Assembly: GCF_900113415.1 (NCBI RefSeq)
Contig: NZ_FOPH01000022.1
Coordinates: 1-42,889, forward strand
Origin: Oribacterium sp. WCC10
Lineage (GTDB): Bacteria > Bacillota > Clostridia > Lachnospirales > Lachnospiraceae
Reading direction: 5' to 3'
DNA: 42,889 nt
Shown: positions 527 to 38,372 of the stretch, piece by piece
Position numbering within the stretch: the first letter of the stretch is position 1
How the letters are laid out: every line of letters starts with the position of its first letter
Made by a program: the position numbers and the translations under genes
Notes under the pieces: model-generated
What the model was told of the DNA's origin: nothing
What the model saw: the letters and a program-made list of their open reading frames with translations, nothing else
Database searches by the model: none

Positions 527-934
527 ATGAATACGAGAGCGAAGAAACGCACTAACGAGGAGTGGCGCCAGATCATCCTCGATGCACGTAATAGCGGGTT
601 GAGTGATTATGAGTATTGTCGCATAAACACAATCCCACCAAGTACATTTTATAGAGCAATCAAAAGATTGCGCCGGCTATCCTGTGATATCCCTGCCGGA
701 GTAGTAACTCAGGACAGGCAAAAGCAGGAAGTCGTTCCAATAAATCTTTCCGATCTGCCGTTAACAAAGACAGATCAGATACAACCGGTCCCAGGAGTTG
801 TCTGCGACAGTATGTCTGGTCCTCTTGAGACAACAATGCGGATCACCATAGGAGGCAGCACCCTCGAACTATCAAACAATGCAGATCCAAGGCTCATTGG
901 TTCGGTAATAAGGATGCTGAACAGCTCATGCTAG
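527..934 (+). CDS. tnpA: IS66-family accessory protein TnpA (orf1), HTH protein
   Basis: A 135-residue first gene of the IS66 element. The N-terminus (RTNEEWRQIILDARNSGLSD, then YEYCRINTIPPSTFYRAIKR) has the helix-turn-helix form of IS66 TnpA, which helps transposition. The stop overlaps the tnpB start by seven bases, so translation is probably coupled. A purine-rich GGAGAA motif lies rather far upstream of the ATG. The length is normal for the family. Confidence 0.88.
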   Translation: MNTRAKKRTNEEWRQIILDARNSGLSDYEYCRINTIPPSTFYRAIKRLRRLSCDIPAGVVTQDRQKQEVVPINLSDLPLTKTDQIQPVPGVVCDSMSGPLETTMRITIGGSTLELSNNADPRLIGSVIRMLNSSC

Positions 935-1299
935 GCGATATCTCCAGCGCAAACAAGATTTATCTTGTCACTGGGTACACCGACATGAGGAAGAGCATAG
1001 ATGGTCTCATGGCTATAGTCCGCGATGCGTATAACCTTGATCCGTACAGTAACGCCGTATTCCTGTTCTGCGGAAGACGTGCCGACCGCATCAAGGCCTT
1101 GCACTACGAAAAAGACGGGTTCTGCTTGTTATACAAAAGGCTCGAAAGAACCTACGGTGAAGCATTCCGTTTTCAGTGGCCAAGGCATGCATCCGAGGTC
1201 AGAAATCTGACCAGGCAGGAGTTCCGCTGGCTGCTCGAAGGTCTGTCGATCGATCAGCCAAAAGCAATAAAACCCACGACAGAAAAACGAGACTTCTGA
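928..1299 (+). CDS. tnpB: IS66-family accessory protein TnpB (orf2)
   Basis: A 123-residue protein with the family signature VTGYTDMRKSIDGLMAIV near the N-terminus, and FLFCGRRADRIKALHYEKDG followed by GFCLLYKRLERT. These are hallmarks of IS66 Orf2 (TnpB), a small protein required for IS66 transposition whose exact biochemical role is not settled. It starts at 928 inside the end of tnpA. A gap of about 130 bp separates it from tnpC. Confidence 0.93.
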   Translation: MLGDISSANKIYLVTGYTDMRKSIDGLMAIVRDAYNLDPYSNAVFLFCGRRADRIKALHYEKDGFCLLYKRLERTYGEAFRFQWPRHASEVRNLTRQEFRWLLEGLSIDQPKAIKPTTEKRDF

Positions 1300-1427
1300 G
1301 CTATAGTCAGGTTGCACAAACTTTCCGAAATTGCACAAAGCTGTCCTCCGGCAGAAGCCCTAGAACCTAGGAAAAACGTGCTTTCAGCGGTATAATTATA
1401 CCAGTTTTGAAAGGACGGATTTAGGCT

Positions 1428-5856: not shown

Positions 5857-5868
5857 TTTATTTTCCCC

Positions 5869-8800: not shown

Positions 8801-9018
8801 TGTGCATCTGTAATCCACGGATTGAGCGTACGAAGTGCCTTCTGAAAATATCGCACTAAAAGGATATCCTTGTAAGAACTTCTTCCAAAAGTTCCATTCT
8901 TTCCAAGGACTTCTTGGTTATATGCCATCTCTACCTGCCACCCTAACTCTTCTTCTAGCAGATGTCCGGCACTTTCTTGTACTAATATATTTTCAGAATA
9001 ATCGTAGCTCAACGTCAT
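5869..9018 (-). CDS. hsdR: Type I restriction endonuclease subunit R (HsdR)
   Basis: About 1,049 residues. The N-terminal PD-(D/E)XK nuclease is visible as TDIVGFVNGIPLLFVELKK (Asp, then Glu-X-Lys). The SF2 motor follows, with Walker A HTQGSGKSYSM, DEAH in IIIMSDEAHRSQYG, the GFTGTPLL motif and the later TGFDVKCLSCLYLDKPL and QTIARANRV motifs. The C-terminal helical domain binds the methylase complex. It translocates DNA and cuts unmodified DNA with HsdM and HsdS. The start is uncertain. AGGAGG sits only two bases before the ATG at 9018 but seven bases before a TTG at 9012, which may be the real start. The open frame to 9054 would overlap the upstream gene. Confidence 0.95.
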   Translation of the reverse strand: MTLSYDYSENILVQESAGHLLEEELGWQVEMAYNQEVLGKNGTFGRSSYKDILLVRYFQKALRTLNPWITDAQVIEAQNTFEKHLSTSSLMQINEEKYSLIRDGIPVTEKKPNGQTEEKRAMVIDFQHPDDMERNHFLAVKEMKIHGDLYRRRTDIVGFVNGIPLLFVELKKNSVDVQNAYTDNYTDYLDTIPHLFYYNAFLMLSNGVEAKIGTLGSKYEFFHEWKRLNESDEGNVVLETMLRGICKKDNFLDLLENFILYDHSGGKTIKILARNHQYLGVNEAIKAYEARKLNDGKLGVFWHTQGSGKSYSMLFLSQKIRRKFTGSPTIVVLTDREELNTQISDTFENCGLLGKTKASQFTATSGDDLVQKLKGNPSFIFTLIQKFNKKPTEPVYPDHDIIIMSDEAHRSQYGIFADNMVGLLPTASRIGFTGTPLLSSDNITERTFGGYISIYDFKRAVEDKATVPLYYENRGEKILDIHNPEITDEILDAIEAADLDAEQQEKLEHEFEKEIHLLTAEPRLRSVAKDFVQHYTDLWTSGKAMFVCLNKVTCVRMYNFVQEYWKDEIERLEEERRTASQQEVLELDRKIKWMKETEMAVVISQEQNEIQTFKKWDLDIKVHRAKMEKRELDKEFKDSDNPLRVVFVCAMWLTGFDVKCLSCLYLDKPLKAHTLMQTIARANRVNEGKSNGLIIDYIGIVKALRKALADYTANIGGRNTDPTVDKAELITRVLEVISSAEEFLEEKDFELNDLIYAKDFTKLGMLQTAANAVSDSKESAKRFATYATELTRMMKYLDRDDISQADRERKDAIIAIFDELKKKKKHVDTVDLMVQINGILSDYIEIDTHTVEDKQAKRFDISKIDFDLLRREFAKVKQKNLVLKDLDELIQIRIDVMLKENPSRVDYYERYQKIIEEYNQEQDRANIEKTFMDLMDLANSMNEEEQRYVREGFSSDEELSLYDLLFNENLSKEDIKAIKKVAVDLLEKIKGRIAELDHWTDKQETKAEIDNLIRDTLWMELPECYDEIRISEYRQKIYEYVYMRYKEVA

Positions 9019-9023
9019 TCCTC

Positions 9024-10181
9024 CTATAACAAATCTGGCAAAGTTGGATCGCATCTTTTAGCATTTGTGTGTGCTAAAACAGTTCCCACTCTTGTGATTT
9101 CAAATGAACAAGGTATTCCTTCCCACCAATTTCTAATCTTTTTAAGCGATTCAAACGAATCCCATTTCTTAATAAACTCATCTTTTACGTTATTTAGCAT
9201 CATTTCATCTTTAGAATACAATTTCCAAACTTCCTCTAATGCTTTTGTCTCAGTTTCAGTTAAAGGTCTCAAATCCGAGGTGATGTCGTTTGATATAAAT
9301 AGATTTTTTATAGAATCTTTTGTAACTATCTCCAACCTAACAAATCCATCGATAAATTCATTTCTAACTAAAATATTAGTAGATAATCCAACCTTTGTGA
9401 TTAATTCAATTGCTTGCTTATACTCCTCAGAATCTATTTTTATTCCAAGACACGCATATCCATTTAATTTCTCACAATAATAATCTCTAAATTTCTTGAA
9501 AGTACTAAATGAAGTCATTCTAACTGCTCCAAGAACATCTAAATGATCAATCCAGTCTCTATCACTTGGAAGATTTATATATAATAACTTTGAAAATAAT
9601 CCTTCAAGCACATTTAATCCTTCATTTATATTTCCGCTAACTGGAGAATACCTATTAATTGCATGAGCTACTGTCAAACCGCAAAGTGCATCATTATCAA
9701 TATCATCAACGATTTCAACTGCTTTTGCAATTCCTACGCGATTTTTTCGATCTGCTCCTTTTTGAACATGGCACATAAGTAGTTCTGATAACAACTCATA
9801 ATCATCTTGTCTTTCAGTCGCAGCAGCCGTTTGTTGGGCTTTCCTAAGCAAAATCTGAAATGCCGGATCACCAAACGCATTTACTGCCGCTTCAACTTGC
9901 ATTACTCTAGGAATAACTGCCATTTCCAGTTTTTCTAGTCTCGAATTCGAAACAGCATATGCTTCTTTCGTATATTGGTCTAACGCTTGAGGAATCATTT
10001 CAGCAAAAACACTTCTTACCCTCTCTTCGCTGATTCCTTGATTTATAATCATTGTACCAACCTGAGTCTGCATAGAGTCTTTTCCTGCAACCTGTCGCTG
10101 AAAAGTATTATCTTCTGATTTTTCCAACTTGTGACTGTTCAGCCTTTGAACCAGCTTTTTGAACCTGTCTAAGATTCCCAT
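9024..10181 (-). CDS. Unassigned 385-aa protein of the type I RM operon, with N-terminal Q-V-G motif
   Basis: I do not recognise a catalytic domain. It resembles an uncharacterised family that I recall under the name LPO_1073/Vpar_1526, found beside restriction genes; this is uncertain. The first 25 residues are basic. Then comes the motif RQVAGKDSMQTQVGTM (about 29-44), followed by an all-helical body that includes FGDPAFQILLRKAQ and ELLSELLMCHVQKGADRK. The TQVG core resembles the tetrad of RHIM-like amyloid motifs. The upstream 88-aa membrane protein ends with a very similar motif, and the two genes overlap by 74 bp in different frames, which suggests coupled expression and a shared complex. 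The overlap does not encode this protein's own motif. Confidence 0.65.
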   Translation of the reverse strand: MGILDRFKKLVQRLNSHKLEKSEDNTFQRQVAGKDSMQTQVGTMIINQGISEERVRSVFAEMIPQALDQYTKEAYAVSNSRLEKLEMAVIPRVMQVEAAVNAFGDPAFQILLRKAQQTAAATERQDDYELLSELLMCHVQKGADRKNRVGIAKAVEIVDDIDNDALCGLTVAHAINRYSPVSGNINEGLNVLEGLFSKLLYINLPSDRDWIDHLDVLGAVRMTSFSTFKKFRDYYCEKLNGYACLGIKIDSEEYKQAIELITKVGLSTNILVRNEFIDGFVRLEIVTKDSIKNLFISNDITSDLRPLTETETKALEEVWKLYSKDEMMLNNVKDEFIKKWDSFESLKKIRNWWEGIPCSFEITRVGTVLAHTNAKRCDPTLPDLL

Positions 10182-10374
10182 TTATACCATCCCCTTCAAT
10201 ATTGTTATCTATTTCGAGTTCTTGTTCCTGTTTTGCTTTATCTTTTGCAATCTGCTTTTGCAATCCATTCTTCTTTATACCTATCTTATAACCAACAAAG
10301 CCGCCAAATATAATACCCACAATTAGCATTACAATCTCAGTACCAATTCCTTGAAAAAACCATTCATACCACAT
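10108..10374 (-). CDS. Small membrane protein (88 aa) with C-terminal Q-V-G motif
   Basis: One transmembrane segment is clear near the start (TEIVMLIVGIIFGGFVGYKI, about 12-31). A charged coiled stretch rich in Lys, Gln and Glu follows, then a C-terminal tail with RQVQKAGSKAEQSQVGKI. The tail matches the motif in the next protein (RQVAGKDSMQTQVGTM). The ATG lies one base after the hsdS stop. The function is not known. The layout of a membrane anchor, a linker and a polymer-like motif would fit a small membrane effector recruited by the 385-aa partner, which is inference only. Confidence 0.7.
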   Translation of the reverse strand: MWYEWFFQGIGTEIVMLIVGIIFGGFVGYKIGIKKNGLQKQIAKDKAKQEQELEIDNNIEGDGINGNLRQVQKAGSKAEQSQVGKIRR

Positions 10375-10375
10375 A

Positions 10376-11575
10376 TCACACCTCTATTTCTCCGTTCATA
10401 AGCTTTGGAAGAAGTCTATCACGAACACCAGCCAACTTGTTATTACTCATACTAAGAGCAAATATTTTCTCAAAAATAGGCTTACAAAAAACGTAATATG
10501 CTTTTCTCAACTGCTCATCCGGATAAAATATTTTTATATTTCCAAATTTTGTCTTATTAACATTTGTCATAGTAGCACCATTACTTCCAACACCATCTAA
10601 CATAGTTTTCAACCTTCTCATAGTAGAATATACATAATATACATCATCCTCATTACTCAAAATGATACTATTTATCTGCTGGTTCGTCTGACATGGTTCA
10701 ACAGCTATATTCACGAGACCAACTGTTGCAATACAGGAAACCATTATTCCATTCTTAGGAATAAATTTATTCTTTTGGGTATCGGCACCTTCTTTTGTTA
10801 GTGTTGATTCTGTGGCTATCGGATAAACACAACCATGCATATCTGGTATTTTTACAAAAGGTATATCTCCTCCATAATACTGCTCCTTCGATGTGGACGG
10901 CGTTTTTCCCGTTACAATTTCTCCTAAATCAGAGATCTTTTTTCTTTCCCATCCTTCCGGAACACCATCAACAATTTTACAATCCTTATACCCAGGAAAT
11001 CTCATATCAACAAACCATTCCTTGTAAAGTCGCTGTGCAGCCTCTTCTAATAGTTTGATTTGTTTTTGGTTGTTTTCAATGAGATCATCATATACTGATA
11101 GCATATCCGCAATTTTATTTTGAATTGCTATATCAGGTGCAGGAAACTTTATTGTTGATAGTTTGTTCCATGACAGATTATCTTGTGCTGCCCCCTGCGA
11201 GATCTGCTTACAATCCTTCTGTAACATGTCAAAAGAGTATTTGATAAATTTAACATTCGATATACCCTCATATGGCTGAAACCCCATAATACTGTCTGGA
11301 AAGCAAGCGTCTATTCCTAATATTGCTGTGTCCGCAATATTGGCAGCTATGGTTATACATAAAGTTCCCACTTCCCATAGCTTACTTTGTGATAATCCCT
11401 TATCATTATATGTACTTTCATACTCTGTCAAATATAGATTAGCAGCTTTAACATCAGCAGTTTGAACAAAAGGATATTTTCCACCAAACAACGATGCATC
11501 ATTCCTTGGCCTGTGTTTTGATTTTCCTCTTGATATTGTACCAAGTTCATCTAGTGTTTTATATTCCCAACTCAT
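10376..11575 (-). CDS. hsdS: Type I restriction specificity subunit S (HsdS)
   Basis: A 399-residue protein with the two-fold layout of HsdS. The first target-recognition domain (about 1-150) ends in FPAPDIAIQNKIADMLSVYD, followed by a conserved helical spacer with LIENNQKQIKLLEEAAQRLY. A second target-recognition domain begins EGWERKKISDLGEIVTGKTP, and the second spacer ends NKLAGVRDRLLPKLMNGEIE. Each domain reads half of a split DNA site, so this protein sets the specificity of HsdM and HsdR. The start overlaps the end of the nuclease gene by four bases (ATGA). The target sequence cannot be read from the protein. Confidence 0.94.
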   Translation of the reverse strand: MSWEYKTLDELGTISRGKSKHRPRNDASLFGGKYPFVQTADVKAANLYLTEYESTYNDKGLSQSKLWEVGTLCITIAANIADTAILGIDACFPDSIMGFQPYEGISNVKFIKYSFDMLQKDCKQISQGAAQDNLSWNKLSTIKFPAPDIAIQNKIADMLSVYDDLIENNQKQIKLLEEAAQRLYKEWFVDMRFPGYKDCKIVDGVPEGWERKKISDLGEIVTGKTPSTSKEQYYGGDIPFVKIPDMHGCVYPIATESTLTKEGADTQKNKFIPKNGIMVSCIATVGLVNIAVEPCQTNQQINSIILSNEDDVYYVYSTMRRLKTMLDGVGSNGATMTNVNKTKFGNIKIFYPDEQLRKAYYVFCKPIFEKIFALSMSNNKLAGVRDRLLPKLMNGEIEV

Positions 11576-12639
11576 TCTTCCATCTCCTTCTTCTGGAGAT
11601 AGAACATCTCCTTCTGTGCTTCTATTTCCGCTTTCAATTCTTCTTCTGATGGAAGATATAGCTTGTATTTTGATGCAAAAAGCTGTTCATTATCATGAAG
11701 AACCGAATATCTTGCGATATCTTCATCTGTATCAGAACATAAAACGATACCAAGAGTTGGATTATCATCTTCTGATTTCTTCAATTCATCATACATACGG
11801 ATGTACATATCCATCTGTCCTACGTCCTGATGTGTGATTTTCTTAGTTTTCAAATCAATCAACACAAAACACTTCAGGATATAGTTATAGAATACTAAGT
11901 CAATATAATAATCTTCTTTTTCTGTATGGATATGCTGCTGTCTCGCAACAAAAGCATAGCCTTTGCCAAGTTCCATAAGAAACTTTTGAAGATTATCAAT
12001 GATGCACTGTTCTAAATCCGATTCCAGATATGACGTATCTTCCTGCATACCAAGGAACTCTGCAATCACCGGATTTTTTATAAATTCAAGTTTATTCTGA
12101 TACTGACTTGTAAGCTCCTTCATTTCCTGCTCTACTGCGATTGGATTTTGTGTTTTTAACATTCTATAGTAATACTGTGTAGAAATATTTCTCTGTAATG
12201 TACGTACACTCCAAGCCTGATTGTATGCTTCATTTTCATACCATTCTCTGGCATCTGTATCTTCTACTTGTAACAGGACTCTGTAGTGCGTCCATGACAG
12301 CAACTTAGATTGTGGACTCACTGAGTCCACAATCTGAGGATACTTCTGATAAAATTTCGCAAACTTATATAAAGAGCTCTTATCAAACCCTTTTCCATAT
12401 TCCTTTGTCAATTCATCTGACAAAGATGCAATGATTTCTTTACCATATCTGTCCGTACGTTCACCACTTAATTCCTCTTCTACTATTCTTTTACCAAGGA
12501 ACCAGTTTCTCATTACCAACACAGCATTCACTGATTGAAAAGCTCTCTTTTGAGCAGAATCAATAATACTTTTTACATCAGAGACTATGTCAGCTGTTTT
12601 TTCGTATTTGATTACTTCTAAATCTTGTCTATCTTTCAT
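11572..12639 (-). CDS. YhcG/DUF1016-type PD-(D/E)XK nuclease
   Basis: A 355-residue protein with two parts. The N-terminal DUF1016 region includes QSVNAVLVMRNWFLGKRIVE, then DRYGKEII and KGFDKSSLYKFAKFY. The C-terminal PD-(D/E)XK fold has YYIDLVFYN (Asp about 247) and FVLIDLKTKKI (Asp about 262, Lys about 264). Proteins of this family commonly sit between or beside hsdM and hsdS in type I systems and are thought to be accessory nucleases; the role in restriction is not firmly known. It overlaps hsdM upstream and hsdS downstream by four bases each (ATGA), which points to tight translational coupling. Confidence 0.88.
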   Translation of the reverse strand: MKDRQDLEVIKYEKTADIVSDVKSIIDSAQKRAFQSVNAVLVMRNWFLGKRIVEEELSGERTDRYGKEIIASLSDELTKEYGKGFDKSSLYKFAKFYQKYPQIVDSVSPQSKLLSWTHYRVLLQVEDTDAREWYENEAYNQAWSVRTLQRNISTQYYYRMLKTQNPIAVEQEMKELTSQYQNKLEFIKNPVIAEFLGMQEDTSYLESDLEQCIIDNLQKFLMELGKGYAFVARQQHIHTEKEDYYIDLVFYNYILKCFVLIDLKTKKITHQDVGQMDMYIRMYDELKKSEDDNPTLGIVLCSDTDEDIARYSVLHDNEQLFASKYKLYLPSEEELKAEIEAQKEMFYLQKKEMEE

Positions 12640-14534
12640 AGTCCCATCTCCTTCATATTCTGTGAGATGGCATCCATCAATTCATTACTTTCAGCTTGAA
12701 GCGAAAGTAACTCCTGATGAATCTCTGCCATTCTTTCTTCAAAGTCCACCCCATCATCTTCTACCGGCGCAACACCTACATATGCTCCAGGAGTTAATGA
12801 CCAGCCTTTATCTTCTATGCTGATATCATTTTCATCTGCTTTCTTATCACTCGTTGTATATGCAATCTTACAAAGTCCTGGGATATCCTGATATTCGCCA
12901 TCACCAAATTTGCTATAAAGCCAATGTGCCTCTTTTACTATTTTTGCAATTTCTGTAATGTCTGCTATCTTTTCATCCCATTCTGTCTGAACACGCTTCT
13001 TATCTTTTCTATCTGCAGCCTCGACTGCTTTTTTAGAGTTCTCTTTTAATGCTTTTAGTTGCTTTTTTACAACCTCTATTCCCTCCCCAAACACATCATC
13101 ATTGACATCATTTAATCCGGCTTCTCCAGTTTCAGAAACCAAAGTAGCAATTGTAGTTTTATATTCTTCAAGCAATGCCTGATACTTCTCTGGCTCACCC
13201 CTATAAAGCCATACAATTGCATTTAGATTCTTAAGCTGCCATTCACTCCATTCATTTAATGTACGATCGACAACTGTATAATAATTTCTGGCATCAATAA
13301 ATAAGACCTTATCCTTAATAGCATCAGATTTGCCTTTATCATAGAACCATAATGAGCAAGGCAAACTCTTCGTGTAAAAGAAATTATTTCCAACAGAAAT
13401 CATGACATCCACATGTCCGGTCTTAACAAGTTTCTCTCTAATATCCTTGTCACTTCCCTGGCTATCTGTAGCAGATGAAGCCATAACAAAGCCGGCACGT
13501 CCCGTTTCATTCAAATATGCATAGAAATAAGAAATCCATAGATAATTTGCATTTCCGATTTCTTTCTTTTTATTCTCTTTTGGAACACCAAATGGTAACC
13601 TTCCTGCATTTGTAGCTGATTCTGCTTTAACCTTATCAACGTTAAACGGTGGATTTGCCATGACATAATTACACTGTCCTTCTAGGTTATGTGCATCATG
13701 ATAAAAACTGTTTGCTTCGTCTCCAGACTTAATCACGCCCGTAAGTCCATGCACAGCCATATTCATCAAGCAAAGCTGGGCATTATACTTAACCTTTTCC
13801 TGACCATAAAAAGTCATGCTTGAATTAGCCTGTAATCCTGCTTCATTTACAAAATCACCAGTCTGAACAAACATCCCACCTGAACCACATGCCGGATCAA
13901 GAAGAACACCCTGCTTAGGTTCAAGAATATTAACAATCATTTTTACAAGTGACTTTGGTGTAAAGAAAACACCGTCATCAGATGCAATATTCTTAGCGAA
14001 TTTATTTAGGAAATACTCATAAATACGTCCAATAACATCACCACCAACCTCATCTAGTGCATTGTTATTGAATATTCTTAAAAGCTCTCCAAGCAACTCA
14101 TCTGAGAAATCTGTATAGCTTTTTGGCAGAACACCTGTAAGTTGCTCACTCTGCTGCTCAACCAAATTCATTGCATTGTTTACTACTTCACCAAGACTTG
14201 CCATAGGCTGTCCATCAACATTTACTAATCCCATTGATGAAACATTTGAAGGCAAATTAACAAGATAACTAAACTGAGCCTCTTTAGGAAGATATAGTGC
14301 GCTTTTGGCTACAAAGTCGCTAGCTTCAACAGGCATTTGTCTTCCGTTTCTAACGGGTCTTGTCTTTAATATTTCCTCTTCAACCATCTTAAATCGGCTA
14401 TATGCATATCTAAGGAACAGCAATCCAAGCACAGGCATGCAATACTGATTTGATGTTAATTTTGAACCTGCACGGAGTAAGTCTGCAGATTCCCATAAGT
14501 CTGATTCAAGTTTTTTTATACTTCTGTTATCCAT
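12636..14534 (-). CDS. hsdM: Type I restriction N6-adenine methylase subunit M (HsdM)
   Basis: A 632-residue protein with the helical HsdM N-terminal domain and the gamma-class N6-adenine methyltransferase core. The AdoMet motif LLDPACGSGGMFVQ lies at about 211-224 and the catalytic NPPF at about 294-297. The C-terminal part (about 460-632) is long, charged and partly coiled, including a region resembling a partner-binding tail. The protein methylates host DNA to protect it and is the core of the restriction complex. The start at 14534 has a weak TTAGGA ribosome site. It follows the small HTH gene by 63 bp and overlaps the nuclease gene by four bases. Confidence 0.95.
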   Translation of the reverse strand: MDNRSIKKLESDLWESADLLRAGSKLTSNQYCMPVLGLLFLRYAYSRFKMVEEEILKTRPVRNGRQMPVEASDFVAKSALYLPKEAQFSYLVNLPSNVSSMGLVNVDGQPMASLGEVVNNAMNLVEQQSEQLTGVLPKSYTDFSDELLGELLRIFNNNALDEVGGDVIGRIYEYFLNKFAKNIASDDGVFFTPKSLVKMIVNILEPKQGVLLDPACGSGGMFVQTGDFVNEAGLQANSSMTFYGQEKVKYNAQLCLMNMAVHGLTGVIKSGDEANSFYHDAHNLEGQCNYVMANPPFNVDKVKAESATNAGRLPFGVPKENKKKEIGNANYLWISYFYAYLNETGRAGFVMASSATDSQGSDKDIREKLVKTGHVDVMISVGNNFFYTKSLPCSLWFYDKGKSDAIKDKVLFIDARNYYTVVDRTLNEWSEWQLKNLNAIVWLYRGEPEKYQALLEEYKTTIATLVSETGEAGLNDVNDDVFGEGIEVVKKQLKALKENSKKAVEAADRKDKKRVQTEWDEKIADITEIAKIVKEAHWLYSKFGDGEYQDIPGLCKIAYTTSDKKADENDISIEDKGWSLTPGAYVGVAPVEDDGVDFEERMAEIHQELLSLQAESNELMDAISQNMKEMGL

Positions 14535-29899: not shown

Positions 29900-29932
29900 A
29901 AAAGCGGTCTTCCTAAATGGAAAACCGCTTTT
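29900..29932 (-). terminator. rpoA terminator
   Basis: Arms AAAAGCGGT and ACCGCTTTT with an inner TTCC/GGAA pairing form a hairpin 20 bp after the rpoA stop. On the minus strand it ends in a short U run (TTTTGTG). Confidence 0.75.
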
Positions 29933-29952
29933 GGAAAAGTTTCAAAATTCAA

Positions 29953-30903
29953 TTACTCAACGTCTCTGCTGCTGAGTGAAAGTCCCATAGACTCAAGCTT
30001 ACCGAGAATCTCATCGATAGACTTGCGACCCATGTTACGAACCTTTGAGAGATCCTCAAGATTCTTGTTGCAAAGATCGCCAACCGTATTGATGCCTGCT
30101 CTCTTAAGACAATTATAAGAACGAACACTGAGCTCAAGCTCATCAATGTTCATATTCATAAGATCGTTAGAATCTCCGCTTCCTGCATCCTCGACCTTAA
30201 CTTCACTCTCTGCATTGATATCCATATCAGCAAAAAGCTTAAGATGTGAATCAAGTATACGTGCAGAAAGAGAAACTGCATCATCAGGAGCCATAGTACC
30301 GTTTGTGGTAACATCGAGAGTGAGCTTCTCTTCATTTGTTCCCTCGATAGGATCGATGACCATATTTACTCTTACAACAGGGCAATAGATAGAGTCAACA
30401 GCGATAACTCCGATAGGAAGATCACTGCGGTCACGGGTGTTGGCACCATCATAACCACGTCCCTTTGTCATCTTTATCTCCATATAAAGTCTCGCTTCCT
30501 TACCTGAAAGTGTAGCGATAACCTGATCCTGATTTACGATCTCTACTTCTGATGTAACTTTGATATCTGAGCCACGAACGATTCCCTCACCGGCATAATC
30601 AATGTATGCCATAACAGGATCGTCACTTGATGATGTATTTTTAATTGCAAGCTTTTTCAAATTAAGGATGATATCACTAACATCTTCCTTAACGCCAGGG
30701 ATGGATGAAAACTCATGATATACTCCATCAATCTTTACCTCGCTTACTGCGGCACCAGGCATTGATGAAAGAAGGATACGTCTTAAAGAATTTCCTATAA
30801 CAGTACCCTCACCCTTTGCAAGCGGAGCACATACAAAACGTCCAAACTTTTTATCATCTGAGATTTCCTCAACTTCGAGAACCGGTTTGATTTCTACTGC
30901 CAT
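29953..30903 (-). CDS. rpoA: DNA-directed RNA polymerase subunit alpha, stand-alone copy
   Basis: A 316-residue alpha subunit. The N-terminal dimer and assembly domain includes GNSLRRILLSSMPGAAVSEV and HEFSSIPGVKEDVSDIILNL. The C-terminal domain has ELSVRSYNCLKRAGINTV and VRNMGRKSIDEILGKL, keeping the Arg, Asn, Cys, Gly, Lys and Ser positions used to contact UP-element DNA. It starts MAVEIKPVLEVEEISD, unlike the common FEKP-type start of Firmicutes alpha. None of its usual neighbours (rpsM, rpsK, rpsD, rplQ) is present. It has its own promoter and terminator and lies next to the rep gene of an iteron origin. It may be a second copy or the only one. Confidence 0.95.
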   Translation of the reverse strand: MAVEIKPVLEVEEISDDKKFGRFVCAPLAKGEGTVIGNSLRRILLSSMPGAAVSEVKIDGVYHEFSSIPGVKEDVSDIILNLKKLAIKNTSSSDDPVMAYIDYAGEGIVRGSDIKVTSEVEIVNQDQVIATLSGKEARLYMEIKMTKGRGYDGANTRDRSDLPIGVIAVDSIYCPVVRVNMVIDPIEGTNEEKLTLDVTTNGTMAPDDAVSLSARILDSHLKLFADMDINAESEVKVEDAGSGDSNDLMNMNIDELELSVRSYNCLKRAGINTVGDLCNKNLEDLSKVRNMGRKSIDEILGKLESMGLSLSSRDVE

Positions 30904-31012
30904 TACCCTACCTCTTTATATTAGAATCGCTGAAACAACATAGTAGCACATGTTCTAAAAACCAAATTCATCGATTTACAGACTACCTCTATTTTTAGAA
31001 CTAAGCTATTCT

Positions 31013-31040
31013 ATTATAGCGTTTTTTTATTGCATGTCTA
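31013..31040 (-). promoter_or_regulatory. Promoter of rpoA
   Basis: On the minus strand TAGACA (31035-31040), a 16-bp spacer containing a run of seven A, then a perfect TATAAT (31013-31018), about 110 bp before the rpoA ATG. It shows that rpoA is transcribed on its own, not from a ribosomal-protein operon. Confidence 0.7.
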
Positions 31041-31065
31041 GTATTTTTTGGAAAAAAGTATAAAA

Positions 31066-31093
31066 AAGTGGGTGCATTTTATTGCATCCACTT
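31066..31093 (-). terminator. rep gene terminator
   Basis: Arms at 31066-31076 and 31083-31093 (11 bp, one wobble position) with a U-rich tail TTTTTTATAC on the minus strand. It lies 65 bp after the rep stop and separates rep from the rpoA promoter. Confidence 0.8.
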
Positions 31094-31157
31094 AATTTTG
31101 TAGTAAAATAATATCCTTATAAGCTTTTTATCCGGGCATATTCTCAATGCCACTGTC

Positions 31158-32009
31158 TTAAGCTATCTCAACAAGTTTTCCGGAATCATCAAAGTTAAGA
31201 CTAAGCTGCCCCTTGAACTGAAGATTACGCTTTTCTATCTTACTTACAGTCTTATTATATGTAGCGAAACGATCCAGAGTATCCTTGTTTTCTATATACA
31301 ATCTGATATGAGTGATTCGCTTTCCCTGAAGTCTGCCTTTAACAAGTTCACCCTTATCGGTTATACAATCATAGGAAACTGTGATGTCTGTGTATTCATT
31401 GATTTCCTTGATGGCCGGAGAAAGGACTCTCTGCTTGAAGTTTCCGAAAGCACTGTACACATCTGCCATAAGATTCTCTCTCAATGCATCAATGGAAATG
31501 TCTACATGTCCTTTGTAGGCATAGGACTTGGCAAGCTCGTATAAGCGAGGTGAATACTTGCTTGTCATGGAAAGGATATTATAAAGCTCATACTCTGTAA
31601 AATTGTTCTGGATACCAAGAAGATAAGTCTTGATACGGCTGTCAAGAATGAGACTTATAGTTCCCTTTCTTTCATTATACTCAGGCTCATTGAACCAACG
31701 GAGCTTAATAACACGATTGTCGATATTTACCCAGAATGCTTTCTCATCGATGGAATCGATCATATTTCTGAAATCACGATAAACATTCTTTGGATCTATA
31801 CCGCAAAGTCTCGCAAAGTCCAATGCACGTATCTCATACTTTTTGAACTCTTCCTCACCGGGTTTTATCATGGTGATAACGTAATTTACAAGCTTCTGTT
31901 CGTTTGCGGTAAGGTTGTATTTGGCTTTCTGGATTAATGCATTATCTTTAACAACAAGATATGTACGCTGATCATCCACTTTTTCTTTCTGGGTTTTATA
32001 TGCAGCCAT
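31158..32009 (-). CDS. Replication initiator protein, Rep_3 (RepB/RepE-like) family
   Basis: About 283 residues from the ATG at 32009, with AGGAGAGG 11 bases upstream; the open frame runs on to 32141 across the promoter and is not used. DNALIQKAKYNLTANEQKLV and NYVITMIKPGEEEF are typical of the first winged-helix domain of iteron-plasmid initiators; the second follows from LSMTSKYSPRLYELAKSYAY. Such proteins bind iterons as monomers to open the origin and often repress their own gene as dimers. The iteron array starts about 400 bp upstream, and one iteron abuts the rep promoter. Confidence 0.9.
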   Translation of the reverse strand: MAAYKTQKEKVDDQRTYLVVKDNALIQKAKYNLTANEQKLVNYVITMIKPGEEEFKKYEIRALDFARLCGIDPKNVYRDFRNMIDSIDEKAFWVNIDNRVIKLRWFNEPEYNERKGTISLILDSRIKTYLLGIQNNFTEYELYNILSMTSKYSPRLYELAKSYAYKGHVDISIDALRENLMADVYSAFGNFKQRVLSPAIKEINEYTDITVSYDCITDKGELVKGRLQGKRITHIRLYIENKDTLDRFATYNKTVSKIEKRNLQFKGQLSLNFDDSGKLVEIA

Positions 32010-32112
32010 CTGTAAAACAACCTCTCCTGAAACATCTTTCCTGTATTTCGCAAAAATGAGGGTCAGAATAAAAAAATCCGTGTCTTCATCGAACCCTCGA
32101 TCACATGTCAAT

Positions 32113-32141
32113 ATAGTAAAACTCATTACCCTAAAAATCAA
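32113..32141 (-). promoter_or_regulatory. Probable rep promoter
   Basis: On the minus strand TTGATT (32136-32141), a 17-bp spacer and TACTAT (32113-32118), about 105 bp before the rep ATG. An iteron starts two bases upstream of the -35 box. Confidence 0.6.
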
Positions 32142-32143
32142 TG

Positions 32144-32159
32144 ACCGTAATTATGTTAT
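32144..32159 (-). promoter_or_regulatory. Iteron at the rep promoter
   Basis: On the minus strand ATAACATAATTACGGT, one of the iteron series and directly next to the -35 box of rep. This fits autorepression by the initiator (inference). Confidence 0.7.
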
Positions 32160-32398
32160 ATCTCTATTCTGACCCGATTTTTGAAATTCCGGCAGGAAAA
32201 GTTGCATTATTATCGCAGAATACTGCCCGGATTCCACCTGTTTCTACCCGAATATTCTGCTTTTATGACCTCTTTAAGGGGCTGTATTTTTTCGCGCGCA
32301 TGTTTGTATTTTTTAAGCGTTATTTTTTATTTGATTTATTTAATATTATATATATTTATATTATTTAATAGCAAAATAGCACGGAATTACGCCATTTT

Positions 32399-32407
32399 TT
32401 ATCCACA
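32399..32407 (+). promoter_or_regulatory. DnaA box
   Basis: TTATCCACA, the exact DnaA consensus, lies between the AT-rich stretch and the first iteron. Confidence 0.8.
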
Positions 32408-32410
32408 TAG

Positions 32411-32489
32411 ATAACAAATCAACGGTAAGGTATAACAGATTTACGGCGAGGTCTAACAAATAGACGGTAACATATAACAAATAAACGGT
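32411..32489 (+). repeat. Four tandem iterons at exact 21-bp pitch
   Basis: 16-bp cores start at 32411, 32432, 32453 and 32474 with consensus ATAACAAATTTACGGT. The 21-bp spacing (two helical turns) puts all four initiator sites on the same face of the DNA. Confidence 0.93.
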
Positions 32490-32497
32490 GTGAAAAT

Positions 32498-32624
32498 CTG
32501 AGAGTTGAGTGAGGTAGTTAAGGCCTGTGTTTTTGGCGGGTTTTCAGCGTAAAAACACGGATTTTCCGGGGATTTTCTGAAAGTTGAGTCGCTTTTCAGC
32601 CCTGATCTTACGAAAGTTGAGTGT
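32498..32624 (+). repeat. Three copies of a GAAAGTTGAGTG-like motif in the origin
   Basis: Copies at 32498-32511 (CTGAGAGTTGAGTG), 32578-32591 (CTGAAAGTTGAGTC) and 32611-32624 (ACGAAAGTTGAGTG). They are not iterons. They might bind a second protein; no known match. Confidence 0.55.
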
Positions 32625-32698
32625 ATTTTTAGTGGTCATCACCAGGTATTTGGAAAAAAAGCACTATTTCTGATCTGATTTTTTGTAAAAATCGTCTT

Positions 32699-33298
32699 AT
32701 AACAGAATTACGGTGAAAATTTATGACCTGTAACACTATGACGGTGAACCTGTAAAGAATATTTAAGCCGTAATTTTGTTATAAAGTTAAGTGATAAGGC
32801 ATGTTATAACAGATTTACGGTAGACACGCATGACAGCGTGTATTTAATGAAAGAATTCATAACCATTATATAATGACAGAATTTCAGGTATTTATTCTTC
32901 TATGGAAATGAATCATATAACATTTAATCGCAAAAAACATAACTTTTAAACGGGATTTATCACGTTAATCTGATATCAAAATGAATCAAATCTCAATTGT
33001 AAGAAAAATGTAAGCCGTAATTTTGTTATATATTCTTCGCCACTACCCCTGCGACACTTATAAAAGGTGATTTTAGTGCTAAACAAGGCAAAAACAGCCT
33101 GTATATAACATTATTACGGTATAAAAACGTATTAGATGTGTCGTTTCATATTCAAATATTTCAAAACATAACAAATATACGGTAAAAGAGATATAACAAA
33201 AATACGGTATCTCCTTTTCAGGAAATACCGTAAATATGATATAAGTTCAGACCATCAATTTGTTATAAAGTCCGTGGGGCAAACCGTTAATCTGTTAT
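32699..33298. repeat. Second, mixed-orientation iteron cluster (11 copies)
   Basis: Forward copies start at 32699, 32730, 32806, 33105, 33168 and 33193. Reverse copies start at 32767, 33014, 33227, 33251 and 33283. Most keep ATAACA plus ACGGT with a variable centre; the copies at 32730 and 33251 are the weakest. Mixed orientation favours looping or copy-number control by pairing of bound initiators, as known for iteron plasmids. Confidence 0.85.
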
Positions 33299-33303
33299 AA
33301 GTT

Positions 33304-34788
33304 TTATATTTTTATCTTTTCCAGCAGATTCTGTATGTCTTCTACCGGCTCTGTCTCCTTTAACTTCCATACAGCATTCTTTACAGCCGTTGATGGAACA
33401 TATTCATCCTTAAGCCATTCTTCAAGTGTGCTGAGTGCCATCTGACGGTTGGCATTTATCGGACAGTTAAGTGAACTGATTATAAATTCCTCTCCTGCGC
33501 CCGCTGTATCAGCCAGATTTTGAACAAGGAAACTAAGCTGGTGGTATGGTCGATACTCCTCTCCCACACCGAGATTATCTTTAGGTCCGCTGGCCATCAT
33601 CTGAAGTGGCAGCTTAGTTCTGAAGATATCGAACAGCTTATTCAGAGTTTCATCATCCTTTGGAAGAATATCAATAAGGGAAACATTGGCATCAAAATCA
33701 GATCCCATCGCATCAAGTATCTCATTCGTGCAGTCGATACTCATACGGCGGGCGATTCTGAAACCTCTCTTCTCGGTGATCATGAGCTGAACATATTCTG
33801 TTATAGGTTTTGAATTCAGAAGCTTTTCAAGTCTTTCACTCAATTTTCCGCTTTCTGTAAATATATTGTTACTCAGGTAATCACGAAGATTAAGCAGAGT
33901 TTCAATGCTTTCGCTTGTATGCTCAACATTTTCTGACTGCTTCAGATAGCCGGAAATGATCTCTGTTCGATCAGTCATGGAGGACATACCCTGAATGGTG
34001 CCCTCATTGAGGAGACCGTCTATGATTGGTCTTGAAAGATAATAATCTCCTGAGTTAAATTTCGGGTTTGAAAATACCCTGGCGAGATTTATCTTCTCTG
34101 CCACTGTTCGGGCAGAGTAAGCTGCACCGATGTTGTTTTTAACCCCTTCGCGGAAAAGCCAGTCTTTAACCTTTCCTGACTCTGCCGGTATATGTTCAAC
34201 ACAGTGAATGCGTCCCCAGCCTTTTACATGCTTTGCAAAATCAAGGATAGCTTCTGTTGAGTCTTTCCAGGTTTCTGCAATGAAAATGGAAAATAGAGTC
34301 AGTTCATCGGAGCGTGCAAGTGTGCGTACCACATCCTTTACGGCGTCATTATCATCGGTATCCATCATTTCAAGGACTGTAAGAGCAAATTTCAGGCACT
34401 CGGTATTATCTGTCCTTATGATGATATTGGCTGCAAATTCAAACAGTGCCTCGGCATCAATGGTATCGGTGTTCCCATTCACCCATTTCTCCAGCTTCTC
34501 TACTAATGGAAGCATACGGACATCGTTGTCTGAAAAGAAGTCGATGAGATCATACTCAGCTGACTCAAAGTCATGCCGGGATGCTTCCTCGATAACATTG
34601 GTAAGAGAATCTATATCATCATTTCCGGGCATATTATGGTAAAGGTACATGCCATCCAGACTTCCGTCTACCAGACGCACCCTGGATATAGAAGGTGATA
34701 ATGTTCCCGTCTGGAGGCGGAAACCCTCCGGAAGCATGTCGTTAGATTGTATGTTATCGCTGATAAGTTCAAATAATGATGTTGACAT
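33304..34788 (-). CDS. Unrecognised 494-aa helical protein next to the origin
   Basis: The protein is soluble and looks almost wholly alpha-helical, with repeated helix pairs suggestive of HEAT-like repeats (for example ALFEFAANIIIRTDNTECLK, LKFALTVLEMMDT). No catalytic motif is visible. A GGGAGG ribosome site precedes the ATG. Its stop lies five bases from the last iteron, so it is transcribed towards the origin. A role in replication, partition or another process cannot be read from the sequence. I have no confident family assignment. Confidence 0.7.
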   Translation of the reverse strand: MSTSLFELISDNIQSNDMLPEGFRLQTGTLSPSISRVRLVDGSLDGMYLYHNMPGNDDIDSLTNVIEEASRHDFESAEYDLIDFFSDNDVRMLPLVEKLEKWVNGNTDTIDAEALFEFAANIIIRTDNTECLKFALTVLEMMDTDDNDAVKDVVRTLARSDELTLFSIFIAETWKDSTEAILDFAKHVKGWGRIHCVEHIPAESGKVKDWLFREGVKNNIGAAYSARTVAEKINLARVFSNPKFNSGDYYLSRPIIDGLLNEGTIQGMSSMTDRTEIISGYLKQSENVEHTSESIETLLNLRDYLSNNIFTESGKLSERLEKLLNSKPITEYVQLMITEKRGFRIARRMSIDCTNEILDAMGSDFDANVSLIDILPKDDETLNKLFDIFRTKLPLQMMASGPKDNLGVGEEYRPYHQLSFLVQNLADTAGAGEEFIISSLNCPINANRQMALSTLEEWLKDEYVPSTAVKNAVWKLKETEPVEDIQNLLEKIKI

Positions 34789-34872
34789 TAATCCTCCCTG
34801 AATTGCAAAGTCATTCCGTATTCACGTTAATCAGTGAGTGGCAAATACTTTTGCCCCTTACATCATAATAAA

Positions 34873-34918
34873 CTATTCAATAAACAGCAGAAATACAGCA
34901 TTTCAGTTTATTGAATAG
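34873..34918. repeat. Perfect 13-bp inverted repeat with inner stem
   Basis: CTATTCAATAAAC and its exact complement enclose a 20-base loop that itself can pair (GAAAT/ATTTC). It lies between the basic-protein stop and the 494-aa gene. It could be a weak terminator for the minus strand or a protein site; it has no strong U tract. Confidence 0.6.
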
Positions 34919-34954
34919 CGGTGTCGTTAATAAGGGCTATTGTAGCGCTGCCTC

Positions 34955-35380
34955 TCAATATCCAAAGTGTTCACGCTGCGTATCTTCGTCGTAAATCTTA
35001 TTATATGCTGCAGTTCCCTGCTGGAAGATTCTTATGAGATACCATTCCACACCCTTGATGATTACCATATCTCCCACTTCTTTCCTGGCAAATGGGTGGT
35101 TCGGAAGATTTATACGGGTAGTGACCTTTTTCTTGCCGTCTGAGATCATCACATAGTCTCCCTGCTGTGCACCTTTTTTACCCTTTAGTTTTGTGTTGTA
35201 GAAAGGCTTTGGTTTTTTATCTCCGAAACCGGAGCCCTTTGAAGATGAGTTGGTCTTCCTTGAAGATGGCTTTGTTTTTCCTGAAGATTTTCCATGGCCA
35301 TTTTTATTGAAATCAGGTTTTCTTCCGGAGTTTCTCTTTTCTCCTGAACTGCCAAATTTGCGAGTTTGTTTTTCGTTCAT
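34955..35380 (-). CDS. Small basic protein with disordered N-terminus
   Basis: A 141-residue protein. The first 70 residues are Lys, Ser, Gly and Asn-rich and look disordered (for example KSSGKTKPSSRKTNSSSKGS). The last 65 residues look folded, with GDYVMISDGKKKVTTRINLP and GVEWYLIRIFQQGTAAYNKI. The strong positive charge suggests nucleic-acid or ribosome binding. I do not recognise it. It lies just downstream of the sigma gene terminator, and an AGAGG ribosome site precedes the ATG. Confidence 0.65.
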   Translation of the reverse strand: MNEKQTRKFGSSGEKRNSGRKPDFNKNGHGKSSGKTKPSSRKTNSSSKGSGFGDKKPKPFYNTKLKGKKGAQQGDYVMISDGKKKVTTRINLPNHPFARKEVGDMVIIKGVEWYLIRIFQQGTAAYNKIYDEDTQREHFGY

Positions 35381-35423
35381 TGTTTACCTCTTTTTCTAAA
35401 TTGTTCATCACGATACAAAGAAA

Positions 35424-35452
35424 GGCTTTCTGCTATTTTATAACAGAAAGCC
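35424..35452 (-). terminator. Sigma factor gene terminator
   Basis: A GGCTTTCTG / CAGAAAGCC stem (9 bp) with an AT loop, followed on the minus strand by TTTCTTTG. It lies about 40 bp after the sigma stop. Confidence 0.78.
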
Positions 35453-35490
35453 CAAATATAAATCATTTTTTGACATTCACATCAGAATAT

Positions 35491-36633
35491 TCAGGATTCA
35501 AGGAATCCATCAAGCTCACGTTTGTACTTCGGATTCTGAAGCTTATGTAAAGCTTTGTTTTCAATCTGGCGGATACGTTCTCTTGTTACATGATACATGG
35601 TACCGATCTCTTCAAGAGTTCTTTCACGTCCGTCAACAAGACCATAACGCATTTCGAGAACCTCTCGTTCTCTGTCGCTGAGATTAACGAGAATCTTATC
35701 CAGCTGCTGCTTCATCATAACATTATTGATATTCTGTTCAGGTGAAGTGATCTTATCGTCAGCGATGAATGATCCAAGATCAGAATCCTCATCTTCGCCC
35801 ACCTTGCTGTCGAGAGATGCCGGGCCTGCATCGTAGTTAACGACTTCCTGTATACGTTCTTCAGGTATATCAAGTGCTACACTGAGATCCTGAGTTGTAG
35901 GCTCGTGTCCGAGCTCCAGAGCAAGCTGTCTGGATGTCTTTTTGATCTTATTGATAAGCTCAACCATATGAACCGGAACACGGATGGTTCTTGACTGGTC
36001 TGCAAGGGCTCTTGCTATTGACTGACGAATCCACCATGTGGCGTAGGTTGAAAGCTTGAAACCTCTGTCCGGCTCAAACTTCTCGACTCCACGCATAAGA
36101 CCGATATTTCCTTCCTGAATCAGGTCAAGGAAGTTCATGCCTCTTCCGGTATATCTCTTTGCAATTGAAACAACCAGACGAAGATTGCACTCAACAAGTT
36201 CCTGCTTGGCCAGCTTATCTCCGTTTTTGCAGCGAACAGCAAGATCATGCTCACGTTCCGGGGTAAGAAGCGGGTAACTTCCGATCTCTTTCAGATATAT
36301 ACGAACAGGATCATCTGCTGAAATATTCTCGAGATTTGAAAGAGCCTCCATATCAAGAGATCTGGCCTCTTTATCTTCTTCAGAAAGATCATCTTCGGAT
36401 ATATCTTCATCAGCGAAATCATCGCCGTTTGTATTGATACTGATATTAATATCAGATTTTACTTCTTTATTGATAACTAAAGAGTCTGAATATGTTTCAT
36501 CTGATTCTTTATCTTCCATGGTACTCAGACTTACATAATCAGCGGAATCCATCGTTCCGGCATCTAACTCTTCCATTATATCTCTATTTTCCTGTGACAT
36601 ACTATCCTGTTTCCAATCATTAAATATAGACAA
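35491..36633 (-). CDS. Primary-type (RpoD/SigA-like) sigma factor without recognisable region 1.1
   Basis: A 380-residue sigma-70. Region 1.2 ([20 protein letters not shown], about 108-127), region 2 ([20 protein letters not shown] and [20 protein letters not shown], about 165-210), region 3 and region 4 ([15 protein letters not shown] and [20 protein letters not shown], about 318-367) are all typical of group 1/2 sigma factors. The first 105 residues are acidic and Ser-rich instead of the usual region 1.1 fold. The first start is a TTG (36633, AGGAA close upstream); an ATG at 36600 is possible. It has no dnaG neighbour, unlike the usual rpoD locus, and is transcribed alone. It may be a second primary-like sigma. 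Confidence 0.93.
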
Positions 36634-36811: not shown

Positions 36812-36980
36812 AAAAAGGATTGAAGATTTATAAAGTTAAAATAATTTAAAGGAGTGTGCATTTATTTAAATTTCTTAACTATCTATAATATACACAATTC
36901 CCTCAAATAGTGATTGAAGAAATTCGAAATCAGAGATTATGAATTTCTTAAGATGATTTTTTAGAGCTTCTGGCATACAT

Positions 36981-37727: not shown

Positions 37728-38324
37728 TTACTTCTCTTTAACAGCAGTAAGTACTGTCGGAATTCCGTAGTACTCTCCGCTCCAGGTCATTGTGTCTTCA
37801 GTGAAGCTGATCTTAACATTTCCGCCTGTTGTTGTCATGATGTAGCTGCCGTCCTGCTCTATCGGAAGTGTTATGGTACCAATCTGACCATCTTCATATG
37901 CGATAGAGAGATTAAGGTTTTGTGCCGTGTCAATGTTTACCTGAAGGGTCAGTATGTCAACGCCGGAAAAAGGTACACTCATATTCATTGACTCTGCAGA
38001 CTTGAATTTATAACGTCCGTTGAAGCTGCTGGTAGTATCTGTGGTTCCTGAAAATGCAATATTTTCGTGTGACTTATCGGTGAGAACCGAACGCCGGCAC
38101 ACTTCTCCGTTAACAGTCCAGGCTCCGGTTGAATCAACAGTATAGCCGTCGTCTGTCAGGCCACCGGAATGAAGAGTTCCGTCGTCATTGAAGTAATAAC
38201 ATTCGGCGAGACCGTCTCCATTGGTATCGATCCATGCCCAGCTGCCTGCCATTCCGGTGAAACCAAAGGCTGATACGGTGGTGACAGTTGCAAGAAATGC
38301 AATAAGTTTCTTTGTTAATTTCAT
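37728..38324 (-). CDS. Secreted protein with Trp/Gly-rich wall-binding-like repeat
   Basis: About 198 residues. A signal peptide (MKLTKKLIAFLATVTTVSAF) is followed by GSWAWIDTNGDGLAECYYFN and DDGYTVDSTGAWTVNGEV, a repeat resembling choline-binding-like cell-wall repeats common in Butyrivibrio and relatives. A beta-rich domain of about 110 residues ends the protein. The ATG at 38324 has a strong AGGAGG; the frame to 38348 adds eight unlikely residues. It is probably exported and wall-associated. Its function is unknown. Confidence 0.75.
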   Translation of the reverse strand: MKLTKKLIAFLATVTTVSAFGFTGMAGSWAWIDTNGDGLAECYYFNDDGTLHSGGLTDDGYTVDSTGAWTVNGEVCRRSVLTDKSHENIAFSGTTDTTSSFNGRYKFKSAESMNMSVPFSGVDILTLQVNIDTAQNLNLSIAYEDGQIGTITLPIEQDGSYIMTTTGGNVKISFTEDTMTWSGEYYGIPTVLTAVKEK

Positions 38325-38372
38325 TTTATTTCCTCCTGTCGGATTCATTTTTTGATTTAAATGATGTAAGTG

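Follow-up and report, generated by a model that had tools for sequence, protein, structure and literature searches.

A second RNA polymerase alpha subunit throughout Oribacterium and the prediction of an oriented alpha heterodimer

The paired alpha-like subunits of eukaryal and archaeal RNA polymerases, RPB3/RPB11 (Rpo3/Rpo11), are ancient and far diverged, RPB11 being without the insert and C-terminal domains. One of the two faces beta and the other is its partner (PMC3294249). In bacteria, the closest described case is Francisella, which has unlike subunits, alpha-1 and alpha-2, genus-wide, one of them encoded in the ribosomal operon (PMC3294249; PDB 6wmp, chains A and B), and whose heterodimer was assembled in vitro. 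Here, we analyzed a 42,889-nucleotide stretch of DNA from Oribacterium sp. WCC10 ("the window", G000:C23:1-42889; the host genome is a 3.64-Mb draft of 53 contigs), which carries a gene for the alpha subunit, rpoA, close to a plasmid-type replication origin. We refer to the rpoA type of the window and its product as rpoA-W and alpha-W, to the ribosomal-operon type as alpha-O, and to the sigma factor of the window as sigma-W. As in Francisella, unlike alphas were found genus-wide, with one in the ribosomal operon. Whereas RPB3 and RPB11 have diverged far, both Oribacterium copies retain all alpha domains, as judged for alpha-O by alignment.

Two rpoA genes have also been named in Chloroflexus, Streptomyces avermitilis, Psychromonas and Leptospira (PMC3294249). 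In the open-license literature, we found nothing on rpoA or the RNA polymerase alpha subunit of Oribacterium, nothing on a chromid with rpoA or an alpha subunit, and, as bacterial alpha heterodimers, those of Francisella only; plastid rpoA paralogs also surfaced. A second comparison is offered by the chromids BPc2, BhuII, PxyII and pINBov266 of Butyrivibrio and Pseudobutyrivibrio, which belong to the same family as Oribacterium and combine plasmid-type replication with core genes. The literature on these chromids is among PMC2914790, PMC5716241, PMC6249431, PMC7523725 and PMC7588896, and the terms "rpoA" and "RNA polymerase" were absent from the main texts searched. In contrast to the descriptions of these chromids, the Oribacterium replicon, possibly a separate one, carries alpha-W and a primary sigma. 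A preliminary description of the window had held that no replicon-encoded alpha/sigma pair of this kind was described. The literature found does not contradict this statement, although the alpha heterodimer of Francisella provides a better parallel.

The rpoA-W gene (29953-30903; coordinates are those of the window and features lie on the minus strand unless stated otherwise) encodes an intact second alpha of 316 amino acids, as shown by profile matches. Its dimerization, insert and C-terminal domains (PF01193, PF01000 and PF03118) all scored above the Pfam cut-off, the TIGR02027 rpoA model matched with 328 bits (cut-off 227.8), and the C-terminal domain was placed at 29992-30171 by profile match and alignment. 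No ribosomal-protein gene was found in the surrounding 3.9 kb. The other rpoA of the window genome lies on contig C21, in the order rpsK-rpsD-rpoA-rplQ, and is 58% identical to the window copy. The preliminary description had raised the question of an rpoA in the ribosomal operon; there is one, and the window gene is a second alpha, not the sole one.

Alpha-W was present in 17/17 Oribacterium genomes and both alphas in 15 of them, the two genomes without alpha-O (G008 and G011) being 73% and 77% complete. Alpha-O lay beside ribosomal-protein genes in 15/15 cases (in G015, on a short contig with rplQ only), and alpha-W in 0/17. A second alpha is genus-wide in Oribacterium. In G001 and G010, both copies were on chromosome-sized contigs (2.45 and 2.49 Mb), and these genomes had no match to the Rep3 family of replication initiators. 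In a family sample of 248 genomes, including two of the genus, 243 had an alpha match and five had none. Twenty-six genomes of other genera that had two or more matches among those listed, plus G050, were re-examined with the alpha insert-domain model: G169, G206 and G224 had two matches, 23 genomes had one and G050 had none. The two matches of G169 were contig-end fragments, probably of one gene. The second copy of G206 was on a 3.2-kb contig, kept the TRVG loop and an EF-type beta segment (NEFT), had a long branch and is likely foreign, and we did not retain it as another case in the Lachnospiraceae. Among 398 genomes sampled from the phylum, one alpha was found in 391, two in five (the window genome included) and none in two. 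The other genomes with two were G594 (identical pair), G390 (near-identical pair), and G371 and G504, with diverged second copies. In these last two Bacillota (L272 and L273), the second copy had lost the residues at 66-69, HEFS, and kept the TRVG loop, like alpha-O, and the first copy was canonical; loss of the beta-side segment in duplicate alphas may be recurrent. In PLSDB, 88 records matched alpha, with identity below 60% among the matches listed (20 of 88); most of these matches are presumably ribosomal-operon copies from chromosome fragments deposited as plasmids.

The sequence features that distinguish the two copies were read from an alignment of 17 alpha-W, 15 alpha-O, 42 control alphas of other Lachnospiraceae, the G206 outlier and the alpha of E. 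coli MG1655, whose numbering is used below. The controls were the 28 best alpha-W matches, 12 picked along the family list (among the matches listed) and two from G206 and G224. HEFS (30706-30717 in rpoA-W) was kept in 17/17 alpha-W and 42/42 controls, versus 2/15 alpha-O. The losses were reciprocal. RVG at 191-193 was kept in 0/17 alpha-W, 15/15 alpha-O and 42/42 controls, and D[YFL]DK at 197-200 in 0/17, 14/15 and 42/42, respectively. Indeed, the whole loop 189-200 was short or rewritten in all alpha-W; in the window, PIEGTNEEK (30325-30351) replaces NTRVG..TDYDK. An AlphaFold model of the alpha-W monomer (predicted local distance difference score, 77.2; predicted template-modeling score, 0.44) had a short turn at this place, between strands 176-185 and 191-200, and was uninformative on the dimer. 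When N-terminal-domain stretches of 12 residues were ranked, the most deviant were 66-77 in alpha-O and 189-200 in alpha-W. The C-terminal-domain residues matching E. coli R265, N268, G296, K298, S299 and E302, which we take to be DNA-contact positions, were kept in 17/17 alpha-W and 15/15 alpha-O.

Both altered segments fall on faces of alpha that have been mapped in E. coli. Beta protects residues 30-55 and 65-75, the latter including HEFS, beta-prime protects 175-185 and 195-210, and insertions at 180 and 200 impair beta-prime binding (PMC3294249). The dimer interface, in which F35, T38 and L39 of one monomer contact I46, S50 and Q227 of the other (PMC3294249), was changed as well. E35 and V38, encoded within alpha-W codons 32-35 (30799-30810; E. 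coli 35-38), replace F/Y and T in 17/17 alpha-W, 0/15 alpha-O and 0/42 controls, Y35 and T38 being retained in alpha-O and the controls. S50 was changed in 11/15 alpha-O, 0/17 alpha-W and 0/42 controls, and D77-V78, invariant in the 42 controls, was kept in 1/15 alpha-O. With E35/V38 in alpha-W and the S50 changes in alpha-O, a heterodimer would have one dimer-contact cluster near canonical and the other altered on both sides.

We built trees of the alphas, as the preliminary description had proposed. With E. coli included, alpha-W formed one clade (support 100/100) with a long stem (0.71), alpha-O formed one clade (100/84) with a short stem (0.064), and the two were sisters (83/89). When E. 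coli and the G206 outlier were left out, alpha-W and alpha-O together stood apart from the 42 controls (98/90). The rpoA duplication is lineage-specific, both copies being of common descent inside Oribacterium. HEFS is still present in the alpha-O of G010 and G015, so that the changes in alpha-W probably preceded those in alpha-O, which may have arisen repeatedly. In six pairwise comparisons of G000, G007, G004 and G012, the ratio of nonsynonymous to synonymous substitution rates (dN/dS) was 0.03-0.11 for alpha-W and 0.04-0.07 for alpha-O, several dS values being near saturation; both alphas are under strong purifying selection in these four genomes.

Losses distributed in this way suggest that alpha-W and alpha-O act jointly as a heterodimer in the general polymerase rather than that alpha-W builds a second enzyme. 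We put at roughly three in four the chance that Oribacterium has one general RNA polymerase in which alpha-W and alpha-O form an oriented heterodimer, of an origin independent of that in Francisella. According to this proposal, rpoA would have been duplicated at the base of the genus and a division of labor would have followed. As alpha-W keeps the beta-facing HEFS and has lost the beta-prime-side loop, it would be expected in the alpha-I position; as alpha-O keeps the beta-prime side and lost HEFS later, apparently more than once, it would be expected in the alpha-II position. The E35 and V38 changes of alpha-W and the S50 changes of alpha-O would disfavor homodimers. The general enzyme would then be alpha-W/alpha-O/beta/beta-prime in a fixed orientation, with each alpha C-terminal domain in a set place. 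We infer in this way the composition of the dimer, the pairing of each alpha with a large subunit, their essentiality and, further below, the separate replicon.

In Francisella too, the duplication was lineage-specific and dimer contacts changed; beta- and beta-prime-side residues are split between its copies (PMC3294249), to which the reciprocal motif losses of Oribacterium may correspond. The two cases differ in that Francisella belongs to an unrelated phylum and its pair has an independent origin, the Oribacterium heterodimer being a prediction from sequence. They also differ in the residues involved: R45 is lost in Francisella alpha-2 (PMC3294249), whereas Oribacterium has R45 in 17/17 alpha-W and 15/15 alpha-O, its losses being HEFS 66-69 in alpha-O and loop 189-200 in alpha-W. 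Lastly, the beta partner in Francisella is the operon copy, alpha-1 (PMC3294249), whereas the operon copy of Oribacterium is the predicted beta-prime partner. Because R45 is kept in both Oribacterium alphas, the Francisella route was not taken and we do not file them as that family; they are predicted to work like the Francisella type, outside the Francisella family.

Several observations weigh against this reading. Every alpha-W and alpha-O has kept R45 and L48, which in E. coli are the classical residues for binding beta. Beta-prime residues were kept in alpha-W (K86 in 17/17, V173 in 16/17), and K86 was also kept in all alpha-O except one. Alpha-W was altered at 30-41, inside the beta footprint (2.36 for alpha-W, 0.01 for alpha-O). 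In part because of this change, a test set in advance on the full footprints (beta 30-55 plus 65-75 versus beta-prime 175-185 plus 195-210) was not significant, 50/227 circular shifts being as extreme. Tested after the fact, the beta-prime footprints alone gave 33/227 and segment 65-75 alone, a result on the favorable side, gave 3/227, circular shifts being a weak control since alignment columns and related sequences are non-independent. The choice of controls was biased, 28 of the 42 being the best alpha-W matches in the family. Finally, the alpha-O of G010 and G015, which retain HEFS and the loop, are apparently still fit for both jobs.

The sigma gene of the window bears on a different explanation. 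Sigma-W (35491-36633) is a sigma-70 factor with regions 1.2, 2, 3 and 4 according to Pfam, and is 369 amino acids long from its in-frame ATG. The preliminary description had placed a group 1/2 sigma about 5 kb from rpoA, across the rep gene and the iterons, and the domain matches bear this out. It had also raised the question of a further rpoD-type sigma: the window genome has three group 1/2-type sigma genes, two of them besides sigma-W, on contigs C15 and C19. We took the C15 type as primary because its clade includes the sole sigma of that kind in each of G001 and G002. In a tree of 32 sigma loci, C19-type loci (L178-L181) included, sigma-W formed a clade of nine genomes (100/100) apart from the primary sigma, each with the window type of Rep3 and with rpoA-W and sigma-W sharing a contig. 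The tenth genome with this Rep3, G009, had no sigma-W clade member and is 72% complete. The sigma genes of G014 and G015, considered at one point as sigma-W, fell outside the clade once C19-type loci were included, giving nine genomes, not 11. Like group 2 sigma-70 factors, sigma-W has RpoD-like regions 1.2-4 and is outside the primary clade; it is of group 2 type and sits by the iteron origin. The reported absence of a dnaG neighbor has no discriminating value: the DnaG zinc-finger motif was found at 0/28 sigma loci, the primary ones included, most of these stretches being only 3-4 kb. The third sigma (G000:C19:1132 and 40816) is 437 amino acids long, 59% identical to sigma-W and about 40 kb from dnaA, with close relatives in 4/17 genomes and a more distant one in G015.

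One could imagine that alpha-W, as a homodimer or in alternative heterodimers, builds with sigma-W a second, specialized polymerase for the genes of the iteron replicon. Alpha-W and sigma-W are within about 5 kb of each other, in an order conserved in the rumen clade and in 9/10 genomes with this Rep3 type, and both alpha C-terminal domains keep their DNA-contact residues. Yet the beta-prime-side loop that a homodimer needs is lost in 17/17 alpha-W, and the 13/15 alpha-O without HEFS leave those genomes with no alpha having both segments. Moreover, alpha-W occurs in 17/17 genomes, including genomes with no Rep3 match and no sigma-W clade member, on chromosome-sized contigs in two of them, whereas sigma-W is in nine. 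Since sigma-W follows the Rep3 locus, it belongs to that locus and not to alpha-W, and alpha and sigma are not the unit. This speaks against the idea, put forward in the preliminary description, of an alpha/sigma pair tuning the polymerase to the promoters of the replicon, and we consider a specialized polymerase unlikely.

Slightly less probable still is a role of alpha-W in titrating beta, as a regulatory decoy or an inhibitor of assembly, with alpha-O homodimers making the working enzyme. A subassembly containing alpha-W, with HEFS and without the beta-prime loop, could indeed be dead-ended. Alpha-O, however, has lost HEFS in 13/15 cases and nearly always D77-V78, both invariant in the controls, and the strong purifying selection on both genes in the four genomes compared and the occurrence of alpha-W in every genome argue in the same direction. 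The least likely explanation, that the two alphas are interchangeable and retained for dosage, with differences due to drift after duplication, would accommodate the R45 and L48 kept in both and the HEFS and loop kept in the alpha-O of G010 and G015, but meets with losses that are reciprocal and stable (E35/V38 and loss of RVG in every alpha-W, RVG in every alpha-O), as drift is not expected to leave one side intact per copy.

Turning from the oriented heterodimer to the genomic setting of rpoA-W, the gene adjoins a gene for a Rep3-family replication initiator (31158-32012; PF01051, 5.6e-35; PF21205, 2.7e-14). Beyond it lies an array (32144-33299, sites on both strands), the inferred origin, of 16 sites matching TATAACANANTNACGGT with at most three mismatches. 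At this threshold, the window had 24 matches versus 4.2 expected (100 shuffles, largest 10), 16 of the 24 being in the array. Iteron-like sites outside it lie at 36980, 37642, 37666, 27562 and 24987, that is, between sigma-W and the gene at 37728-38348 and within cobalamin genes; they are possible initiator sites. The window type of Rep3 (E about 1e-35) was found in 10/17 genomes and was close to rpoA-W in 10/10. No Rep3 match was found in G001, G002, G003, G010 and G014, and in G015 and G016 a weaker match was on a contig other than that of rpoA-W. Because a NUDIX gene near rpoA-W is common to the species with this rep3 and to G003 and G016, which are without it, an rpoA-W neighborhood that was already in place may have acquired the Rep3 gene. 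In the rumen clade, rpoA-W would have come beside the Rep3/iteron origin, tying the replicon to the polymerase. A second, different Rep3 at G000:C29 (23849 and 27215) has a ParA-type gene about 3 kb away, and similar pairs were seen in G004, G005 and G007; this is probably another plasmid.

The strand composition around the iterons was examined in three genomes, in which the GC skew changed at the iterons from about -0.2 to about -0.03 (window orientation). As most genes are on one strand on both sides, we compared four-fold degenerate sites of minus-strand genes. In the window, G005 and G004, respectively, the skew was +0.25, -0.02 and +0.07 to the left of the iterons and -0.24, -0.34 and -0.34 to the right. 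Plus-strand genes agreed in sign but were few (3, 21 and 4 to the left, 6 to the right). At other places in these genomes, a difference of this kind separated genes of opposite replication sense, about 0 versus -0.33 to -0.41. By strand composition, the array behaves as an active origin from which forks would depart both ways. To the sigma side of it, in G004:C4 (L227-L235), 71/77 genes over about 108 kb are head-on to the inferred fork, which seems unusual. A different contig carries dnaA and shows a GC-skew inversion of its own, clear at four-fold sites to the left (-0.44, +0.03) and less so to the right (-0.18, 6 genes). A skew change at C15:245 kb, considered as a terminus, proved to be a change in gene orientation only, with no strand switch at four-fold sites.

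The G005 rep3 contig also carries the primary sigma ortholog, and G007:C65 connects rep3 with a block which in the window genome lies on the primary sigma contig, G000:C15. The replicon also bears tRNAs, and synteny summed across genomes suggests a left arm of at least about 425 kb and a right arm of at least 108 kb. The earlier view of a replicon carrying core transcription genes was supported, with the iteron origin beside alpha-W and, in relatives, the primary sigma either sharing its contig or connected to it by synteny across contigs. It is possibly a second chromosome or chromid, or else one chromosome with two origins; the assemblies bearing rep3 are drafts of 53 to 320 contigs. Near the origin, no strong match to the ParA family AAA_31 was found on the rep3 contigs, themselves incomplete, of G000, G004, G005 and G007; partial or weak matches occurred on those of G005 and G007, and none on those of G000 and G004. 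A search for 16S rRNA genes, made to assess replicon content, found them in 1/5 genomes, perhaps because rRNA is missing from drafts.

The remaining features of the locus concern its expression and its neighbors. The rpoA-W promoter TAGACA-16-TATAAT (31013-31040) also occurs in 7/7 relatives aligned, with a TGGACA variant in one, and its -10 region is identical in 8/8 aligned genomes. At 31005-31020, GCTATAATAGAATAGC forms an imperfect palindrome around the -10 region, invariant in the eight genomes; it could be a candidate operator balancing the two alphas. A terminator-like inverted repeat with a TTTT end, read from the sequence, lies 3' of the gene (29900-29933). The picture of a lone rpoA with its own promoter, beside Rep3, iterons and a sigma gene and away from ribosomal-protein genes, was thus upheld by open reading frame, Pfam, promoter and neighborhood data. 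The nearest named loci, which include those of Oribacterium sp. C9, P6A1, NK2B42 and KHPX15 and of Lachnospiraceae bacterium JC7, encode alpha-W with 93-97% identity, and the gene order from alpha-W to sigma-W is conserved in the named rumen strains. Synteny also defines, in the same order across rumen strains, a conserved protein of 494 amino acids adjoining the iterons (33304-34788) and a conserved small protein (34955-35380), neither with a Pfam or NCBIfam match; both are possible replicon maintenance genes. Farther to the left, translations indicated IS66-like transposase genes at the end of the window (527-3107) and type I restriction-modification-like genes with a DUF262-like gene (4048-14534).

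Taken as a whole, the proposal is that Oribacterium has evolved by reciprocal loss, independently of Francisella and with intermediates extant, an obligate oriented alpha heterodimer, and that in the rumen clade the gene of the beta-binding alpha lies about 1-2 kb from the iterons of a second chromosome, which is at least about 0.5 Mb in size and holds the primary sigma gene as well. In this full form we advance the proposal tentatively, rating it slightly below an even bet. If true, Oribacterium, a genus of commensal Bacillota, would be a second, independent exception to the alpha homodimer, which is treated as near-universal in bacterial RNA polymerase, next to Francisella, the one described case in the literature found. 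With some species showing one loss and others both, the successive stages in the evolution of unlike alpha-type subunits, such as those of archaea and eukaryotes, would become testable. If alpha-I and alpha-II identities are fixed, the contributions of the two alpha C-terminal domains could also be told apart in an enzyme from nature. The location of a core polymerase gene beside the origin of what may be a second chromosome would further illustrate clearly how a plasmid-type replicon turns indispensable, as neither replicon could be lost without loss of transcription.

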